Part shown: positions 1 through 27,693 of the stretch, in pieces
Layout: each line of letters opens with the position of its first letter
Position numbering within the stretch: position 1 is the first letter of the stretch
From: a virus
Reading direction: 5' to 3' (one strand)
IMG/VR virus record: IMGVR_UViG_3300042898_001886
Coordinates: 1-27,693 of that record
DNA: 27,693 nucleotides
Notes under the pieces: generated by a model
What the model saw: the letters and a program-made list of their open reading frames with translations, nothing else
Databases searched by the model: none
Told to the model about the DNA's origin: nothing
Position numbers and translations under genes: made by a program

Positions 1-127
1 TACTGTGCCAGGCACGGCTACTGCGCCAGCCGAAATCGTCACTGACCCTACGGCTGCGCGCACTGGAAGCGCTGGTACTGCCACGCGCCTGCTCGCGCAC
101 AATCTTTCCGTGACCCTAGACCACGAT
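1..127. repeat. Left copy of 127-bp terminal direct repeat
   Basis: These bases are identical to the last 127 bases of the window. The repeat lies inside a gene that is open at both ends and becomes continuous when the ends are joined. 127 is a common maximum k-mer length in short-read assemblers, so this is best read as the assembly overlap of a circular or circularly permuted genome, not a biological terminal repeat. Confidence 0.95.
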
Positions 128-5708: not shown

Positions 5709-6644
5709 ATGGCAAGAGTGTTTGAATTCGTGAAGGCCGCGCAGCGCTCACCTGAATGGTTTGAGTTGCGCAAGGATGGAATCACAGCAACTGATGCGGT
5801 GGTGATTGCAGGGCTGTCACCCTACAAAACCCGCTACGAGCTGTGGGCACAAAAGAGCGGGCTGATTGGCGAGCAACCAGCAGGTGAGGCTGCCACCCGC
5901 GGCATCCTGCTTGAGCAGGCTGTGGCTGATTGGTACACGCTAGAAACCGGCAGGAAGTTGAAGCGCAGCAATGGCATTGTGCGGCGCATTGATATCCCGT
6001 GGGCAATGGCAAGCCTTGACCGCACGGTGGTTGGTGAGCCTGGTTTGGTGGAGGTGAAAACCAGCACTAGCAGCCGCTGGCAGCTGTACCCCGTGCCGCC
6101 TGAGTATGTGGCACAGGTGCAGTGGCAGGCATTCTGCACAGGCGCACCGTGGGTTGATGTGGTGGCGCTGCTAGGCGGCTTGAAGTTTAGGTGTGAGCGC
6201 GTAATGGCTGACCCTGAATATCAGCAAGAGCTGTACCGCAAGGCAGTTGAGTTTCGTGAGTTGATTGCCAGCGGCAAGCCGCCAGAGGTAATTGGCACAG
6301 ACTCAGACACGCTGGCAAAGGTGGTGCCGCAAGCCAGCGATGAATGGGCACACGCTGATGACGGCATTGAGCGCGTGGCTGAGCAGTATGCTGACGCGCT
6401 CTATGAGAGCAAGCTGGCTGATGAGCACCTACAGAATCTGGCAGTGGTGATTAAGGAAGCCATTGGGGATAAGGTGGGAATCACCGGCAGGGGCTGGTAC
6501 GCCAGCTGGAAACAGAATAAACCCAGCCGCAAAGTAGATTTCAAAGCGGCGCTGGAGGCGGCAAAGGTGCCTCAGGAAATCATTGAAGGCGCAACTCAGG
6601 AAGTACCTGGGGCGCGAGTGTTTAAGTTTAAGAGGGGGGAATGA
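5709..6644 (+). CDS. YqaJ-like viral recombinase/exonuclease
   Basis: This 311-aa protein matches the YqaJ/lambda-Exo-like nuclease family. It opens with SPEWFELRKDGITATDA (14-30), then has Glu69 in GILLE, Asp104 in ASLDR, the catalytic Glu-Val-Lys triad element at 115-117 (VEVKTS) and the Gln-rich QVQWQ motif at 136-140. Such enzymes resect double-strand ends 5' to 3' to leave single strands for an annealing protein, and the Rad52-like gene follows directly with a 4-nt overlap. The pair is a two-component recombination system acting on replicating DNA. Residues beyond about 200 form a helical C-terminal region common in the family. The AGGAGGG-type site just before the start fixes the ATG. 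Confidence 0.9.
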   Translation: MARVFEFVKAAQRSPEWFELRKDGITATDAVVIAGLSPYKTRYELWAQKSGLIGEQPAGEAATRGILLEQAVADWYTLETGRKLKRSNGIVRRIDIPWAMASLDRTVVGEPGLVEVKTSTSSRWQLYPVPPEYVAQVQWQAFCTGAPWVDVVALLGGLKFRCERVMADPEYQQELYRKAVEFRELIASGKPPEVIGTDSDTLAKVVPQASDEWAHADDGIERVAEQYADALYESKLADEHLQNLAVVIKEAIGDKVGITGRGWYASWKQNKPSRKVDFKAALEAAKVPQEIIEGATQEVPGARVFKFKRGE

Positions 6645-7378
6645 TGAGCAAGGAAATTGCAGCGGCGCTTAGCGCGCCATTTGAGGCTAAGGATTTGAAG
6701 CAGCGCCCAGGCAGGGCTGGTTTAGTGTTCACATACGCTGACGCTCGTGCCGTGGCACAGCGGCTTGATGATGTGCTGGGAATCGCTGGCTGGCAGTTTG
6801 AGGTCAAGGTGGCTGACCCTGCTAGGTGCGTGGTGCACGGCAGCTTGGCGCTGGTGATTGATGGCAGCACCACAATCCGCCAAGATTATGGCTATCCCAA
6901 TGGGCCACAGGATGATGAGCCGCTTAAGTCAGCGGTGAGCGATGCGCTCCGCCGGTGCGCGGCACAGGTGGGCGTTGGCAGGAGCCTTTACAGCCCCGAT
7001 AAGAGCGCTGGGGCTATCAAGCCCCAGCCTACGGCTGCACCAGCCGTTAGCGTTGCGGAAAAGGGCAAATACGGCGATTTTAGCGAGGGGGTCACAGCCC
7101 CTTCAAATGATGACCTGCTGGCAGTGAAGGCTGCAATGATTTTTGCAGAGTCAACCACTGACGGCACCTGCAGCCACGGGCAGGCTTGGAGCCTGAAGCC
7201 AGGTGGCGTGAGCAAAGCTACGGGCAAGCCCTATAACCCATTCTGGGCGGCGAGCCACAAGGCACCTGATGGCTCGTGGTGCAAGGATAAGCCAAGCAAT
7301 CAGTGGGTAGCAGCCCACAGCAAGCCAGCGGCACCGGCACTGGTGCCTGAGGATACGCTTGAGGAGTTGCCTTTTTAG
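6641..7378 (+). CDS. Rad52-family single-strand annealing protein
   Basis: This 245-aa protein has a Rad52/Sak-like core at about residues 15-118: a TYADARAVAQRLDDVLG helix, the GWQFEVK strand, and the DEPLKSAVSDALRRCAAQVGVG motif typical of the family. It would anneal complementary strands made by the YqaJ exonuclease encoded just upstream. After a linker, residues 177-214 form a Cys/His module (Cys177, His179, His206, Cys214) that may bind zinc or DNA. The protein ends in an acidic -DTLEELPF tip resembling the C-terminal tail of bacterial SSB. Two start codons in tandem (6641 and 6644) are both usable. Confidence 0.83.
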   Translation: MMSKEIAAALSAPFEAKDLKQRPGRAGLVFTYADARAVAQRLDDVLGIAGWQFEVKVADPARCVVHGSLALVIDGSTTIRQDYGYPNGPQDDEPLKSAVSDALRRCAAQVGVGRSLYSPDKSAGAIKPQPTAAPAVSVAEKGKYGDFSEGVTAPSNDDLLAVKAAMIFAESTTDGTCSHGQAWSLKPGGVSKATGKPYNPFWAASHKAPDGSWCKDKPSNQWVAAHSKPAAPALVPEDTLEELPF

Positions 7379-7439: not shown

Positions 7440-7880
7440 ATGGCACAAGGCGCGTGGATTAAGTTGAGCGTGGGATGGGATGAGGATGAGCGGATTGCGG
7501 TGCTACCACCGCTGGCGCAGCTCACCTATCTCAAGGTGCTGACGCGGGCGAAGCGGCAGCGCCCTCAGGGGAGCTTTGGCAGCATTGAGCATTTGCGCAC
7601 TTTGGTGCCTGCTAACCTGCACAAGCACTTACCAACATTGGTGAAGGTTGGGCTACTTTTTGAGTCAAATAAAAGAATTTGCGTAGACAACTTTTCTAAA
7701 TATCAAGTAGACCCTAGCGCAACAGAGCGCTCAAACAGGTTCAGAATGGCGCAACGCAACGGTTTTGCAACGCAAATGCAACGCACTGAGAGAGAGAAAG
7801 AGAAAGAGAGAGAGAAAGAGAAAGACACTCTTACTAAACAGCCAATGCAAGTAGGCAAGATTTTGAGAGGCGGTATCTGA
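7440..7880 (+). CDS. Replication initiator/replisome organizer-like protein
   Basis: This 146-aa protein has an N-terminal winged-helix-like domain (about residues 6-88, from WIKLSVGWDEDERI through QLTYLKVLTRAKR to VDNFSKYQV), resembling phage replisome organizers. A basic RSNRFRMAQRN segment follows, then a Glu/Lys/Arg low-complexity linker (116-128). Only 18 residues come after the linker, whereas organizers usually continue into a second domain, so the gene is either a minimal form or has lost its C-terminus. It is the only replication-initiation candidate in the genome. The DNA for residues 104-128 contains iteron-like repeats and a purine tract. GGGAGGG just upstream sets the start. Confidence 0.65.
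   Translation: MAQGAWIKLSVGWDEDERIAVLPPLAQLTYLKVLTRAKRQRPQGSFGSIEHLRTLVPANLHKHLPTLVKVGLLFESNKRICVDNFSKYQVDPSATERSNRFRMAQRNGFATQMQRTEREKEKEREKEKDTLTKQPMQVGKILRGGI
7751..7784 (+). repeat. GCAACG(C/G) iteron cluster in initiator gene
   Basis: The heptamer GCAACGC or GCAACGG occurs at 7751, 7756, 7767 and 7778. The last three are exactly 11 bp apart, close to one helical turn. The cluster lies inside the initiator gene and ends 3 nt before the purine tract. The layout resembles lambdoid origins, in which initiator-binding repeats lie within the initiator gene; the origin role is inference. Confidence 0.5.
7788..7825 (+). other. 38-nt homopurine tract, candidate unwinding element
   Basis: Bases 7788-7825 are all A or G on the + strand (GAGAGAGAGAAAGAG-like) and encode the Glu/Lys linker of the initiator. 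In lambda a purine/pyrimidine-asymmetric easily melted segment lies next to the iterons; the same order is seen here. It could equally be just a coding low-complexity stretch. Confidence 0.45.
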
Positions 7881-13307: not shown

Positions 13308-13718
13308 ATGCCATTTAAAAACCCAGACCACAAAATTGCGGCACAGAGGCGAAGGCGAGGGGTGCTCAGCAGGCAGCAACTCAACGCTATGAATTTGAAG
13401 CAGCGCGCTTACAGGTATGGCATTACGATTACTGAAATTGAGCAGCACATTGCTCGTGGTTGCTTGGCGAAGCACATTAGTGACTGCAATGGCCCCATTC
13501 AAATTGACCACAGCCATAGTTGCTGCCCAGGCAATAACTCTTGTGGCAATTGCGTCCGCGGGGCATTATGCCGGAGGCATAACATAGCGCTTGGCTATAT
13601 AGAGATTGACCCAGCATTTACTGCGTGGGCAATTGCATCATATGCTCCACTGTTTGATGCTCGCAATGAGATGCCAAGCAAGATTGATTGGGCAAAATTA
13701 TTGAGGGGGGAACAATGA
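13308..13718 (+). CDS. Recombination endonuclease VII-like
   Basis: This 136-aa protein has the His-Me-finger/endonuclease VII signature: IQIDHSHSCCPGNN (64-77), SCGNCVRGALCRRHN (78-92), then ALG and a hydrophobic tail. The T4 enzyme of this family resolves Holliday junctions and debranches DNA before packaging. Its place just upstream of the terminase genes suits that role. The basic N-terminal 35 residues probably bind DNA. GGGAGGG precedes the ATG. The stop overlaps the next gene by 4 nt. Confidence 0.85.
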   Translation: MPFKNPDHKIAAQRRRRGVLSRQQLNAMNLKQRAYRYGITITEIEQHIARGCLAKHISDCNGPIQIDHSHSCCPGNNSCGNCVRGALCRRHNIALGYIEIDPAFTAWAIASYAPLFDARNEMPSKIDWAKLLRGEQ

Positions 13719-14935
13719 GCCGCATTGCTTGGTATTCAAACAGCTGTGCCGTGCCAAGTGGCTATGGGCAGCAATCGGCTCAAGTGGTGCACAGGATGGT
13801 GCAGGACGGGCACGAGGTAGCGATTAGCGCCAACCACGGCGCAAGCGTAATGATGAATTGCGCGAGCGGGCACATCATCCTGCCTGAAGGGTTGATGCGC
13901 TACAGCATTGACGCTGCGCCAGAGAATATGAAAGCGTGGGCTGAGGGCAAGCCAGATTCGTTTGGGGTGGTGCTTTTTGATTTGTGGCCGCTCGTAGGTG
14001 TTGAGGGCTTTAAAGAGTTAAACCTTGCCTGCTGGACACCCGTAGACCATAAACCCCTGCCACCAATGGTGCTGCAGTTTCTGCGTGAGGGAAGCCACCA
14101 CGCCATTGCAATGAGTCAGTTTGGCGAGCAAGAGCTGCTTAGCGCGGGAGTTCCGCGCGCGGAGGTTTCCTATATCCCGCACGCCATTGACCGCACCGTG
14201 TTTAAAGACACAGGCAAGGGTGCGCGTGAGGCTATGGGGATTCCAGCCGATGCTTTCCTTGTGGTGACTAATGCAGCCAACCGTGGGCGCATCCCCGTGC
14301 GCAAGGGCTTTGGTGAAATGGCTGATGCGATGAGCCGCTTGATGGCTGACCGCAAAGATGTTTACTGGATGCTTCACACTGAGCCCAATGGATTCAGTGA
14401 GGGCGTAAACATTCCACGCCTAGTGGCGCACCTTGGGATTGACCAGCAGCGCGTGCGTTACCCGCACCCAATGCATTGGCGTAACGGAATCGCTGACAGT
14501 TCCATTGCCGCAATGTTTTCTGCTGCAGATTGCCAGTTACTCACAAGTATGGGGGAGGGCTTTGGAATCCCTGCCGTGGAGGGGATGGCTACGGGTACAC
14601 CGTGCGTGGTTTCGGATTTCAGCGCGCAGGCTGAGCTCGTTGGCGTGCATAGCCACAAAGTGCCGGTGCAACGCGTGTGGGATGAGTTCCAGCAATCCTT
14701 TTTTGCTATCCCAAATGTTGAGGCTATCTACAAAGCCCTGCAGTCTGTCTATGAGGAAACCAAGGCAGGGAAGGTTGACCGCGCTGCCGTGGCAGCAGAA
14801 ATGGCACGCTATGACGCTGACACCGTTTATGAGGAAAAGTGGAAGCCACTGATTGCGCTGATGAGCGCACGCCAGAAACCAGCGGCACAGCAGCCGCTTA
14901 ACCGCGCAGCGCGCAGAGCGAAGGGGGGAAAGTAA
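13715..14935 (+). CDS. Glycosyltransferase, GT4-like (GT-B fold)
   Basis: This 406-aa protein has a GT-B/GT4 layout: an N-terminal Rossmann half beginning SRIAWYSNSCAVPSGYGQQS (glycine-rich acceptor side), a linker with SYIPHAID (152-159), and a C-terminal donor-binding half with the E-x7-E pair Glu281/Glu289 in EGFGIPAVEGMATGTPCVVSD. Such enzymes move a sugar from a nucleotide donor to an acceptor in the cytoplasm. In phages the acceptor may be modified DNA bases, capsid or tail proteins, or host wall glycans; none is shown here. ATG 13715 follows GGGGGG and overlaps the endonuclease VII stop. A basic C-terminal tail (NRAARRAKGGK) is present. Confidence 0.85.
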   Translation: MSRIAWYSNSCAVPSGYGQQSAQVVHRMVQDGHEVAISANHGASVMMNCASGHIILPEGLMRYSIDAAPENMKAWAEGKPDSFGVVLFDLWPLVGVEGFKELNLACWTPVDHKPLPPMVLQFLREGSHHAIAMSQFGEQELLSAGVPRAEVSYIPHAIDRTVFKDTGKGAREAMGIPADAFLVVTNAANRGRIPVRKGFGEMADAMSRLMADRKDVYWMLHTEPNGFSEGVNIPRLVAHLGIDQQRVRYPHPMHWRNGIADSSIAAMFSAADCQLLTSMGEGFGIPAVEGMATGTPCVVSDFSAQAELVGVHSHKVPVQRVWDEFQQSFFAIPNVEAIYKALQSVYEETKAGKVDRAAVAAEMARYDADTVYEEKWKPLIALMSARQKPAAQQPLNRAARRAKGGK

Positions 14936-15509: not shown

Positions 15510-15995
15510 TTGCCTAAGGCAGTAGTTCCAAACGAAGTCAAAGCAAAGCGCGGCACGCTCAGACCTGACCGCGTGCCCACAGTTTCGCTAACGAATAGCC
15601 TCACGGGAGCAGCCGAATTGCCACCGCCTGAGGGCTTGGGTGTGGTGGCGCTGGAGGCTTGGCACCGAATCTTGGCGCACGCTGGCGGCTGGATTGCCGC
15701 TAGTGACCGCGAGGCGCTGACGATGCTAGTGCAGGCGATGGAGTTTCACGCGCAGCTGAGCAAGCAGGTTGCAGAGCAGGGGGCAGTGTTACAAACAGAC
15801 AAAGGCTATGCTTATGCGAATCCAGCAGTAGGAATGCGTGCAACCCAAGAGGGGGAAATTAGGAAGTGGATGAATCACTTGGGCTTGACACCGGCAGACC
15901 GCGCCAAGCTAGGGCTGGCAATGGTGGAAAGCGTAAGCAAGGTAGAGCAGTTTCGCCGCAGGATGCAAGGCAAGGATGGCCACCCCGCTGGCTGA
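15510..15995 (+). CDS. terS: Terminase small subunit, P27-like
   Basis: This 161-aa protein resembles the P27 family: a basic N-terminus (PNEVKAKRGTLRP), a LEAWHRILAHAGGWIAASDREALTM segment, a long central helix and a C-terminal LGLTPADRAKLGLAMVES stretch. It recognises the packaging site and loads the large subunit. Start TTG 15510 gives the usual family N-terminus; there is no better codon nearby. Its 3' end overlaps the large-subunit frame by 130 nt. Confidence 0.85.
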   Translation: MPKAVVPNEVKAKRGTLRPDRVPTVSLTNSLTGAAELPPPEGLGVVALEAWHRILAHAGGWIAASDREALTMLVQAMEFHAQLSKQVAEQGAVLQTDKGYAYANPAVGMRATQEGEIRKWMNHLGLTPADRAKLGLAMVESVSKVEQFRRRMQGKDGHPAG

Positions 15996-17499: not shown

Positions 17500-18687
17500 G
17501 TGGGAATCATTGACCGCATCCTTGGGCGAGAAACAGAAACTGAGCAGCGCGTAGTTGCACCGTGGTGGCCGTCAGACTATCCGCAACGCACCGCCGGTGT
17601 TTCAATCACACAGGAAAATGCCACCGCAATTGGAGCCGTATGGGCCGCGGTGAATCTCTATAGTTCAACAGTTGCCAGCCTGCCGTGGGGCGCATTTATC
17701 CGTGACGCTGGTGTGCGCAGACCCGTTACCCGCCCGCGCTGGATGGATGTGCCAATTCCTAATAACCCTAACTACACGCCATTTGATTTCAAGCACCGCT
17801 TGGTTTCCAGCTTGCTGCTTGACGGCAATGCATTTATTCTGGTGCTCCGCTCGCCTGATGGCGTAGTGGTTGAAACCCGCGTGCTTGACCCGCAAAAGGT
17901 GGAGTGCGTGCGCGGCGAGATGGGCGAGCCGCTTTACAAAATCACTACACAGGAAGGCAGCAGCACGCTGGGTGCTGATAACATTGTGCACATTCCGTTG
18001 TTTGCAACGGGCGAGCATATGCGTGGAATGTCACCAATTGAGCACCACCGCGTAACCCTTGGGCTTGCAAGCGCATCCCAATTGTTTGGCGCGAAGTTCT
18101 ACGAGCAGGGCGCAACGGTTGGCGGTGTGGTGAAGGTGCCTGGTGAGTTGACGGCAGACCAAGCAGAGAATCTGCGCGCAGGATTTGCACGCAGGCACGA
18201 GGGTGTTGACCGCGCTTGGCGCGTTGCAGTGCTCACCGGCGGCGCTGACTATTCACAGATGAGCGTAAAGATTTCTGACCTGCAGCTTGTAGAAACTCTC
18301 CATTGGGGTGTTGAAAGCGTGGGGAGAATTTATGGTGTGCCCCTTCAGTACCTGCAATACCCAGGCGGCAACACCAGCTATAACAGCGCAGAAACGCTTG
18401 GGCAGGCCTGGCTGGTTTTGGGATTAGCGCCAATGCTTGCACGAATTGAAGCGGGCTTGCAGCGCCTTATCGTTGGAGAAACCACCTTTATCAAGTTCAA
18501 CACCGCTGGGCTGTTGCGCGCAACGCAGCGCGAGCGAATGGATTCCTATGCGGTTGCTTTGCAAAACGGAATTCTCACGCTAGATGAAGTGCGCACTTAT
18601 GAGGATTTGCCGCGGCTCGCAGTTGGCGGTGACCAGCATTGGAAGCCACTAAACATTGGCGTAGTAGGGGAGGAGCCGCAGCCTTGA
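17500..18687 (+). CDS. Portal protein, HK97 family
   Basis: This 395-aa protein matches HK97-type portals: AIGAVWAAVNLYSSTVASLP (44-63), a LLLDGNAFILVLR segment, GMSPIEHHRVTLGLA, the KFYEQGATVGGVVK stretch, a SDLQLVETLHWGVESVGRIYGVP stem region and LGQAWLVLGLAPMLARIE. Twelve copies form the ring at the vertex through which DNA enters. Start GTG 17500 follows AGGGAG. The stop is covered by the TTG start of the protease fusion. Confidence 0.95.
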   Translation: MGIIDRILGRETETEQRVVAPWWPSDYPQRTAGVSITQENATAIGAVWAAVNLYSSTVASLPWGAFIRDAGVRRPVTRPRWMDVPIPNNPNYTPFDFKHRLVSSLLLDGNAFILVLRSPDGVVVETRVLDPQKVECVRGEMGEPLYKITTQEGSSTLGADNIVHIPLFATGEHMRGMSPIEHHRVTLGLASASQLFGAKFYEQGATVGGVVKVPGELTADQAENLRAGFARRHEGVDRAWRVAVLTGGADYSQMSVKISDLQLVETLHWGVESVGRIYGVPLQYLQYPGGNTSYNSAETLGQAWLVLGLAPMLARIEAGLQRLIVGETTFIKFNTAGLLRATQRERMDSYAVALQNGILTLDEVRTYEDLPRLAVGGDQHWKPLNIGVVGEEPQP

Positions 18688-20399
18688 GCTACATAATCAC
18701 AGACATTGACGGCACACTTACCACCACAGGCGATACGCCAAACCAGCCCTACATTGACTGGCTTAAGAGTTGGGTGCAGGATACTGGCGATGAGGTGATT
18801 GTGGTAAGCGCCCGCCCTATTTCACGCTTTGCTGAAACTGAACGCTGGCTTGACGAAAACTCAGTGCCCTACACGCAAGTGTTTCTGCAAGACTTCAATG
18901 AGGCTGGCGGCCCTGCTGTCAACGAAGCCTTTAAGGCATATAAGTATTCAAAACTGCAAGAGCAGTACGGTGACGAAATTTTGTTTTTGGTTGACAATGA
19001 CGCGGAGGCGCGTGATGCCGCTGAGGGTATGGGAATTAAAGCCTACACACCTGATGAGGTGCTAAGCGCCCAGCCTGAGCCTGACAGAGCGCTACCAGAT
19101 GCGTACCGCCCAGCCGGTACGGATGGCGCACCAGCAGGGCAGAATTGCGGAAACTGTGCCTTTTACAGTGACGGTTATTGCACAAAGTGGGATGCCAATG
19201 TTAAGAGGAATTATTATTGCGCGGCTTGGAAAGCGGTGGCGCAAACCGCTCCGCAAACCGCACCAGCAGAAAGCCCAAGCTCATACAGCGCAGACAATAC
19301 AGAGCACGATGAGGCACGCGTGGTGATTGATGTGCCTGAGTTTATCCGCGATGCTGCTGCCAAGGGCTTGACATATTACGAGAATGGCTACGCGGGTGAC
19401 GGGCTGCAGGAGCAGACCGTTGAGGAAGCGCGGCAGCTGCGCGCTGGGCAGGTTGAGGATGAAAAAGTTACGCGTATGCGCGCTTGGATTCTCCGCCACC
19501 GTGGCGATTGGGAGGGGGTGCCACAGAATAGTGACGCTGCCAATGATGACTTCCCAGGCCCTGGGGCTGTTGCCGGTTACCTGTGGGGCGTGGAGGTAAC
19601 ACAGGCTGATGGCGCTGACAGAGTTCTACAATGGGCAGACCGCGTGCTAAACACGCTGGCAAATGATGAAAGGTTTGATGTGAAAGAGTTTGAGCGCCGC
19701 GCCCTCCCAATGGGTGAGTTCACAGTTTCCGATACTGAGGATGGGCAAAAGACCTTCAGCGGCTATGCCGCTCTTTTTGATACACCAAGCGCAGGGCTGC
19801 CATTCACTGAGGTGATTGCACCAGGCGCATTCAAGCGCACGCTTTCACGCGCTGCCGCTGGCAGTAAGGTGGTTGCATTCCTGTTTGGGCACGATGAAAC
19901 CCGCGCACTTGCCACCACGGCAAGCGGGCGGCTCTCACTCCAGGAGGATGAGCGCGGGTTGCGCGTTGAGGCGAAGCTTGACCCTGCTGACCCTGACGCT
20001 GCCGGTGTTATTTCTAAGTTGACACACGAGGCCGCTGCAATGGGTATGAGCTTTGGCTTTACTACCCCAAAGGGCGGCGATGAGTGGAGCGGCGATAAGC
20101 GCACCATTCGTGAAGTCAACTTGTTTGAGGTGAGCGTGTTGAGCGCTGGGCAGACACCTGCCTACCCTGCAACGCTTGGCCTCACCGCTGTGCGCAAGCT
20201 CTCCGCCGATAAAATCGGTGTTGAGGCTGAGCGCCTTATGTCTACCCTTGAGGCAATCAAAGCTGCGCAACCGCTCAGCGATGATGACCTTGAGGTTATT
20301 GACCAGGTACGCAGTAAGTTGGCACCGCGCAAGGGGATTGACCCCAGCGTTGCGGCTGCAAAGTTGCTGCTTGAGCGCCTGGCAAACGATACGCTCTAA
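18684..20399 (+). CDS. HAD phosphatase - Cys4 - prohead protease fusion
   Basis: This 571-aa protein has at least three parts. Residues 1-125 are a HAD-type phosphatase like polynucleotide 3'-phosphatases: DIDGT with Asp7/Asp9, Ser42 in VVSARP, lysines at 84-90, and LVDND with Asp104/Asp106. Residues 150-185 hold a cysteine module (Cys155, Cys158, Cys166, Cys179, with CTKWD and YYCAAW). Residues 212-330 hold a helical domain (GLTYYENGYAGDGLQEQTV, RMRAWILRHRGDW). Residues about 335-505 are a U35/HK97 prohead protease with His403 (FGHDE) and Ser456 (GMSFGF). The protease would cut capsid delta-domains; the role of the front parts is unknown. TTG 18684 overlaps the portal stop and follows GGGGAGGAG. 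Confidence 0.85.
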   Translation: MSYIITDIDGTLTTTGDTPNQPYIDWLKSWVQDTGDEVIVVSARPISRFAETERWLDENSVPYTQVFLQDFNEAGGPAVNEAFKAYKYSKLQEQYGDEILFLVDNDAEARDAAEGMGIKAYTPDEVLSAQPEPDRALPDAYRPAGTDGAPAGQNCGNCAFYSDGYCTKWDANVKRNYYCAAWKAVAQTAPQTAPAESPSSYSADNTEHDEARVVIDVPEFIRDAAAKGLTYYENGYAGDGLQEQTVEEARQLRAGQVEDEKVTRMRAWILRHRGDWEGVPQNSDAANDDFPGPGAVAGYLWGVEVTQADGADRVLQWADRVLNTLANDERFDVKEFERRALPMGEFTVSDTEDGQKTFSGYAALFDTPSAGLPFTEVIAPGAFKRTLSRAAAGSKVVAFLFGHDETRALATTASGRLSLQEDERGLRVEAKLDPADPDAAGVISKLTHEAAAMGMSFGFTTPKGGDEWSGDKRTIREVNLFEVSVLSAGQTPAYPATLGLTAVRKLSADKIGVEAERLMSTLEAIKAAQPLSDDDLEVIDQVRSKLAPRKGIDPSVAAAKLLLERLANDTL

Positions 20400-26848: not shown

Positions 26849-27693
26849 TGTCAAACCCGTATTCAGTAACAATTGCTGGTGTGGGCGGCGGCACCGCAAA
26901 CCTGCTGACGCTGCCAGCCTCAACCGCTGGCACCACCCCATACATTGAGCTTGGCAGCCTAAGCGCAACTGTTAGCGCTGATGGTGGCGGCAGAATGTCA
27001 TTTGATGTTTTGCAAACTGAAACCCCCATTGCTGGCCCTTGGTGGAAGTCTGGCAACATTCCCGATAATGCGCGTGTTCAATTTCTAGACACACGCTATT
27101 CCTCAGGTACGGCACTTTTTCTTGGGTATATCACCGGCATTGATGCAGAGATGTTGGGCAGCGGGTTTGGCACGAGGGCAAGGGTTAGCGTTGCCGACGC
27201 TGACGGCTGGCTTGCAAAAACATTGGTCAGAAAGTCATACACCGGCACAGACATTTACCAAACAGTGGGTTCATTTAAGCAGAGTGGCAATAGCCTTACT
27301 GACCGTGACCACATTAATGCTCTGCTCGCCAGAATCCACAACCAGGTAAACGATGCAACCACGCGGCAGATTCTAGACACCAGCGTTATCACTGGCAGCA
27401 CTCGTGCCGTCTATTCTGGAACAGCCGTAACGCTTGGCACGCTGGATTTCAAGCCAACTACTCTAACCAGCGCAATTAGCCAGATTTCAGAGGAAGCAAG
27501 TGGGATAACTGGCACCCCATACAATTTCTATGTTGATGGAGCTGCGCGCCTAAACTATGGCCCCATTACTGTGCCAGGCACGGCTACTGCGCCAGCCGAA
27601 ATCGTCACTGACCCTACGGCTGCGCGCACTGGAAGCGCTGGTACTGCCACGCGCCTGCTCGCGCACAATCTTTCCGTGACCCTAGACCACGAT
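26848..27693 (+). CDS. Minor tail protein, N-terminal part (continues at 1-688)
   Basis: ATG 26848 overlaps the tape measure stop (TAATG). The frame runs open through the end of the window and through the 127-bp repeat into position 1, where it continues to the stop at 688. The N-terminal 240 residues include beta-rich stretches (YIELGSLSATVSADGGGRMSFDV, TALFLGYITGIDAEM shown in pieces) resembling distal-tail/hub proteins that follow tape measure genes. The intact product is 468 aa. A hub or adsorption-apparatus role follows from gene order; no enzyme motif is seen. Confidence 0.8.
   Translation, partial: MSNPYSVTIAGVGGGTANLLTLPASTAGTTPYIELGSLSATVSADGGGRMSFDVLQTETPIAGPWWKSGNIPDNARVQFLDTRYSSGTALFLGYITGIDAEMLGSGFGTRARVSVADADGWLAKTLVRKSYTGTDIYQTVGSFKQSGNSLTDRDHINALLARIHNQVNDATTRQILDTSVITGSTRAVYSGTAVTLGTLDFKPTTLTSAISQISEEASGITGTPYNFYVDGAARLNYGPITVPGTATAPAEIVTDPTAARTGSAGTATRLLAHNLSVTLDHD
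27567..27693. repeat. Right copy of 127-bp terminal direct repeat
   Basis: Exact copy of bases 1-127. Position 27567 corresponds to position 1, so the unique genome is 27,566 bp. Confidence 0.95.

Follow-up and report, generated by a model that had tools for sequence, protein, structure and literature searches.

We identified a probable replication origin of the iteron type inside the phage's own initiator gene, in the 27,693-nucleotide viral record IMGVR_UViG_3300042898_001886 (hereafter the window, meaning the whole stretch of DNA analyzed). An initial annotation had placed an origin within this gene, and the proposal gained support from the match of the gene to an initiator family and from repeats that were kept despite amino acid change. 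The features of an in-gene iteron origin that we saw were an initiator-family gene, phased repeats selected as DNA, and an adjacent strand-asymmetric segment of low stability (Table 1). A point against this reading is that the array is short, with three words of 6 bp.

Table 1. Features of the initiator locus in the window
Feature	Position	Strand	Basis or remark
RecE-like exonuclease gene	5709-6644	+	upstream neighbor of the 146-aa ORF; syntenic in relatives
Rad52/Erf-like annealing protein gene	6641-7378	+	upstream neighbor of the 146-aa ORF; syntenic in relatives
Initiator gene, 146 aa	7440-7880	+	N-terminal winged-helix-like domain, repeat-encoded linker, short conserved C-terminal motif
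Predicted winged-helix domain, residues 5-93	7452-7718	+	AF2 model; weak Foldseek matches
A+T-rich stretch	7660-7712	+	adjoins the repeats on their left side; ranks second in the genome for low stability
Extra GCAACG word	7751-7756	+	5 bp out of phase; absent as a conserved word in L010, L011, and L012
Three iteron words, GCAACG	7756-7783	+	at 7756, 7767, and 7778; 11-bp phase, one per reading frame
Purine tract, (GAGANA)n	7788-7825	+	strand-asymmetric candidate opening site; codon bias, low stability
Conserved C-terminal motif, Pxx[VI]GxIL (PMQVGKILRGGI)	7842-7877	+	alignment of relatives

The genome and its replication module

The record carries an identical 127-bp direct repeat at its two ends (window 1-127 and 27567-27693), which indicates a circular or terminally redundant, complete phage genome of ~27.57 kb. 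Downstream of the 146-aa ORF are a VRR-NUC-like gene, recognized by a weak match, and a dNMP kinase gene. The RecE, Rad52, and dNMP kinase genes were present in every clade checked, and the VRR-NUC-like gene was detected in the closer clades only. The window ORFs scanned included no recognizable gene for a polymerase, helicase, or loader, in agreement with the earlier description of a genome encoding neither polymerase nor helicase.

Outside this module, a glycosyltransferase group 1 gene (PF00534, window 13688-14935) is flanked by endonuclease genes and terminase genes. A 586-aa ORF (window 18639-20399) is an unusual fusion, with a prohead serine protease as its C-terminal part (Peptidase_S78, E 4e-30) and, as judged by eye, a DIDGT motif like that of HAD phosphatases and a segment rich in Cys in its N-terminal part.

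The 146-aa protein is a predicted small initiator

The 146-aa ORF matched phrog_3926, annotated as "replication initiation protein," with an E value of 1.8e-6. Residues 3-133 aligned with positions 3-133 of the 312-position profile, whose C-terminal half is absent from the protein, and the relatives in IMG/VR are of similar length (146-151 aa). A profile of the window family also aligned, with an hhalign probability of 96.6%, to the N-terminal region of L074, a 310-aa initiator-like protein from another phage and a member of a set matching mostly replication families, and GCAACG arrays at 11 bp were found inside the L074 gene as well. In the AF2 model of the 146-aa protein the mean pLDDT was 62, with values of about 70-85 over residues 21-80, and this modest model showed a winged-helix pattern, for which Foldseek returned weak matches to winged helices of the GntR/MarR type (best E 0.03). 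The protein is thus predicted to be a winged-helix-type initiator of PHROG 3926 without the C-terminal part of the family. Its conserved C-terminal motif might, as a conjecture, be a docking peptide for a host helicase or loader.

A sequence search of the PDB yielded weak matches, mostly to leucine-rich-repeat proteins, that we judged spurious, and gp83 of Arthrobacter phage Richie (E 0.3) was too weak a match to be taken as a homologue. In Richie, GCGGCAA-type repeats stand in a row directly 3′ of the replication initiation gene gp83 and outside it (L039, 4406-4550). Scans of bacterial genomes found no relatives of the window protein; with the L074 protein they found four loci, in Chloroflexi or unclassified MAGs. 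Within L074 (9669-10598), one initiator-like gene has two 11-bp GCAACG arrays around a AAAACGTTGCAG element, and its linker peptide, RNGTATQMQR, is nearly the same as RNGFATQMQR of the window.

Three phased words are read in three frames

The initial annotation reported four GCAACG words, the last three spaced by 11 bp, with a run of 38 purines 3 nt farther on, and every one of these positions was exact. The words read GCAACGC at 7751, GCAACGG at 7756, and GCAACGC at 7767 and 7778, and the trinucleotide ACT (7785-7787) separates the last of them from the purine run. A step of 11 bp is not a whole number of codons, and the phased words accordingly fall in three frames, encoding ..RNG, ATQ, and QR.., so that no amino acid repeat is possible. 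When the window was scanned for triple arrays of 6-mers at spacings of 7-30, purine-only words excluded, these words formed the sole out-of-frame array in 27.7 kb, the other triple being an in-frame GCTGCT at 18 bp. A search for DnaA boxes (TTWTNCACA) found none.

With synonymous codon resampling of the same protein, 139/20,000 trials (0.7%) gave the triple array again and 3% gave an uninterrupted stretch of 38 or more purines, rates indicating that the amino acids alone force neither feature. The latter rate, together with the alternating E and K/R encoded by the tract, is what speaks for a different explanation, in which selection acts on the amino acids of a charged, low-complexity linker and the repeats arise as a side effect. 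The placement of the three words in different frames argues against it, as do the comparisons that follow.

The words are kept while the peptide changes

We compared the window with IMG/VR sequences picked by protein similarity. In comparisons of the window with L010, L011, or L024 (66-85% protein identity), 18/18 word bases were identical, whereas the spacers between the words were 40-50% identical, the first 300 bases 67-90%, and third codon positions 49-81%. The encoded peptide varied while the words stayed (QRNGFATQMQR, HRNGSATVLQR, and KSNGYATVAQR). In L012, from a more distant clade, GCAACG had become GAAACG in all three copies, with changes of A to E and Q to K; L026, L034, and L053 shared this change, with GAAACA as the third copy. 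Parallel change at one position in all three copies is what co-evolution between binding sites and the protein that reads them would produce, and is unlike coding sequence.

The annotation had named as evidence against an origin that relatives might keep the amino acids and lose the 11-bp repeats; what we found was the reverse, with repeats kept and amino acids altered. Its four-word array held up for the three words at 11 bp and not for the word at 7751, which lacks conservation in relatives and is probably incidental, so that the functional array would comprise three copies. Nor is the array found throughout the family: clade C (L027-L030 and L035) had two direct copies of GAAACG only, AAACG in some, 22 bp apart, and no clear array was seen in clade D (L032 and L033).

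The adjacent purine tract shows DNA-level constraint

No other purine or pyrimidine run of the window comes close to this one in length, and in 17 sequences (the window and its relatives) the tract was close to (GAGANA)n. Codon choice within it was strongly skewed: Arg was AGR in 31/31 codons against 49/274 genome-wide, Ile was ATA in 13/13 against 5/222, Glu was GAG in 94/94 against 208/291, and Lys was AAA in 49/53 against 44/191, counts that are not independent because the 17 sequences are related. Elsewhere in the initiator gene, third positions were only about 40-55% identical between divergent clades.

Comparison of relatives thus shows that, inside an initiator-family gene, conservation of both words and tract acts on the DNA and not on the protein; candidate binding repeats and a reading frame occupy the same bases, and the DNA constraint prevails. 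The charged-linker explanation leaves unaccounted for the persistence of the words through amino acid change, their concerted change in L012, and an Arg that is always AGR and an Ile that is always ATA in the tract. We regard it as largely refuted and as very unlikely.

By stability, the tract ranked within the lowest 0.02-1.4% of its locus in all clades. Its A+T content is only about 61%, which makes its candidate role in melting weaker than that of the corresponding region in lambda. The A+T-rich stretch to the left of the repeats is even less stable in the window; clades C and D no longer have it, and since it is not conserved in these more distant clades, we treat it as a secondary opening candidate.

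Relation to known origins

In lambda, O dimers bind four inexact iterons of ~20 bp, the origin has a 40-bp A+T-rich region, and the P loader is encoded; the window differs in having three direct words of 6 bp, spaced by 11 bp, and a tract of ~61% A+T. GCAACG has no dyad symmetry of the kind seen in lambda-type iterons, and no lambda-type P loader or DnaB-like helicase gene was matched among the ORFs neighboring the initiator gene. In hhalign the window protein gave 0.2% against gp18 of phage L, the lambda O-like protein used for this comparison. The likeness is one of arrangement: in lambda the iterons are part of gene O and adjoin a segment in which one strand carries almost all the purines (PMC5043065), and the window likewise has iterons in an initiator gene and a one-strand purine segment. 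The "lambda-like" label of the initial annotation therefore applies to the layout and fails for repeat length, spacing, dyad symmetry, a P/DnaB partner, and detectable homology to gp18; the candidate origin would work like that of lambda yet is no lambda O system.

A second parallel is Salmonella phage L, for which a candidate origin with 11-bp direct repeats (TGTCCAACGGA) in gene 18 has been published, the repeats being described as six imprecise copies in two clusters (PMC8022706). In the phage L sequence we counted five copies of TGTCCAACG, spaced by 11 bp and grouped in two clusters; after them comes a stretch of 74% A+T. Both phages thus have 11-bp repeats within an initiator gene, with CAACG as a common core, beside a candidate for strand opening; they differ in that the repeats are followed by an A+T-rich stretch in phage L and by a purine stretch in the window, and in that phage L encodes a DnaB-like helicase next door, of which none was found among the window ORFs scanned. 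In phage-inducible chromosomal islands, iterons are likewise tied to the replication initiator of a phage-related element; there they lie just 3′ of rep, as two sets flanking an A+T-rich region (PMC6092414), and in the window they lie inside the gene. The in-gene arrangement is already known from the lambda and phage L precedents in the open-access literature, and earlier 11-bp cases may exist elsewhere. The window is a further case of it, distinguished by the unusually small size of the initiator and by the lack of a recognized helicase or loader gene.

Iteron-type repeats can have other roles, and in plasmids they can also act in copy-number control. The words might accordingly be binding sites, of the initiator or a different regulator, that serve autoregulation, DNA packaging, or some purpose other than origin firing. 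We consider this improbable, given the position within a gene of an initiator family, the adjacent asymmetric tract, and the matching layout of the candidate origin published for phage L.

GC skew is uninformative

Cumulative GC skew had been suggested as a check on the origin. After detrending, the skew had its minimum at 2319 and its maximum at 15979, neither of them at 7.8 kb. The turning points matched boundaries of gene modules (lysis genes and terminase) in a genome whose recognized genes are all co-directional, and we set skew aside as an origin marker, as it neither supports nor refutes the origin. The true origin might instead lie elsewhere, for instance close to the minimum at about 2.3 kb, with the repeats vestigial. 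We give this very little credence, less than any other alternative, because the skew turns coincide with module boundaries and because vestigial repeats would not persist across clades this divergent.

A possible mechanism of initiation

For the in-gene origin we infer a sequence of binding, opening, and helicase recruitment leading to theta replication. The winged-helix domain of the initiator would bind the three GCAACG words, and with the words one helical turn (11 bp) apart, the bound copies would sit on one face of the DNA. Strain from binding could then open the adjacent strand-asymmetric GAGANA tract and, in this phage, perhaps the A+T-rich stretch too. Host helicase, primase, and polymerase would enter the opened DNA, possibly recruited via the short C-terminal motif.

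Out-of-frame phased arrays in other phages

A scan of viral contigs for three GCAACG words at 11 bp returned 101 stretches. Controls gave similar numbers (99 for 10-bp spacing, 88 for a permuted word, and at least 120 for 12-bp spacing), and we rejected raw counts as evidence; the discriminating feature is the genes in which the arrays fall, not their number. The permuted word, CGAAGC, also failed as a null, being itself a repeat word of other initiators and so a second positive. ORFs with 11-bp arrays of either word belonged largely to replication families (primosomal, DnaD-like, O-like, and replication initiation), those with 10-bp arrays to mixed families, and those with in-frame 12-bp arrays to tail and structural families, with replication families accounting for 0 of the top 25. 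By BLAST clustering, a loose single-linkage grouping, 19/32 GCAACG-11, 19/32 CGAAGC-11, and 8/25 GCAACG-10 proteins joined the cluster of the window family, compared with 0/32 of the 12-bp proteins (Fisher p 8e-8 for GCAACG at 11 bp versus 12 bp).

We also analyzed 37 initiators, relatives of the CGAAGC-bearing L381 picked by protein similarity alone. Triple arrays were present at 10 bp in four and at 11 bp in four, where synonymous shuffles gave expected means of 0.11 and 0.06, respectively; none were present at 7-9 or 13-20 bp.

Genes of other phages in PHROGs 3926, 9474, and 2447 and in DnaD-like or primosomal families resemble the window gene in carrying out-of-frame repeats at 10/11 bp. 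The window protein differs from these initiators in its small size and in its missing C-terminal half. We tentatively suggest, with somewhat less than even confidence, that helically phased out-of-frame hexamers at 10-11 bp are a general, word-independent mark of origins in phage initiator genes, and that the 146-aa protein is a minimal form recruiting the host helicase via a C-terminal motif of a dozen residues. If so, DNA constraints write the linker peptides of these initiators, and origins can be read from phage genome sequence alone; the 10/11-bp signature may then be a simple origin finder for many phages without polymerases and helicases. For the uncultivated lineage studied here, the locus provides a testable origin candidate. 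In an unrelated phage, a 194-aa ORF (L112, 11660-12241) contains a long GCAACG array at 11-bp steps, with nine triple matches.
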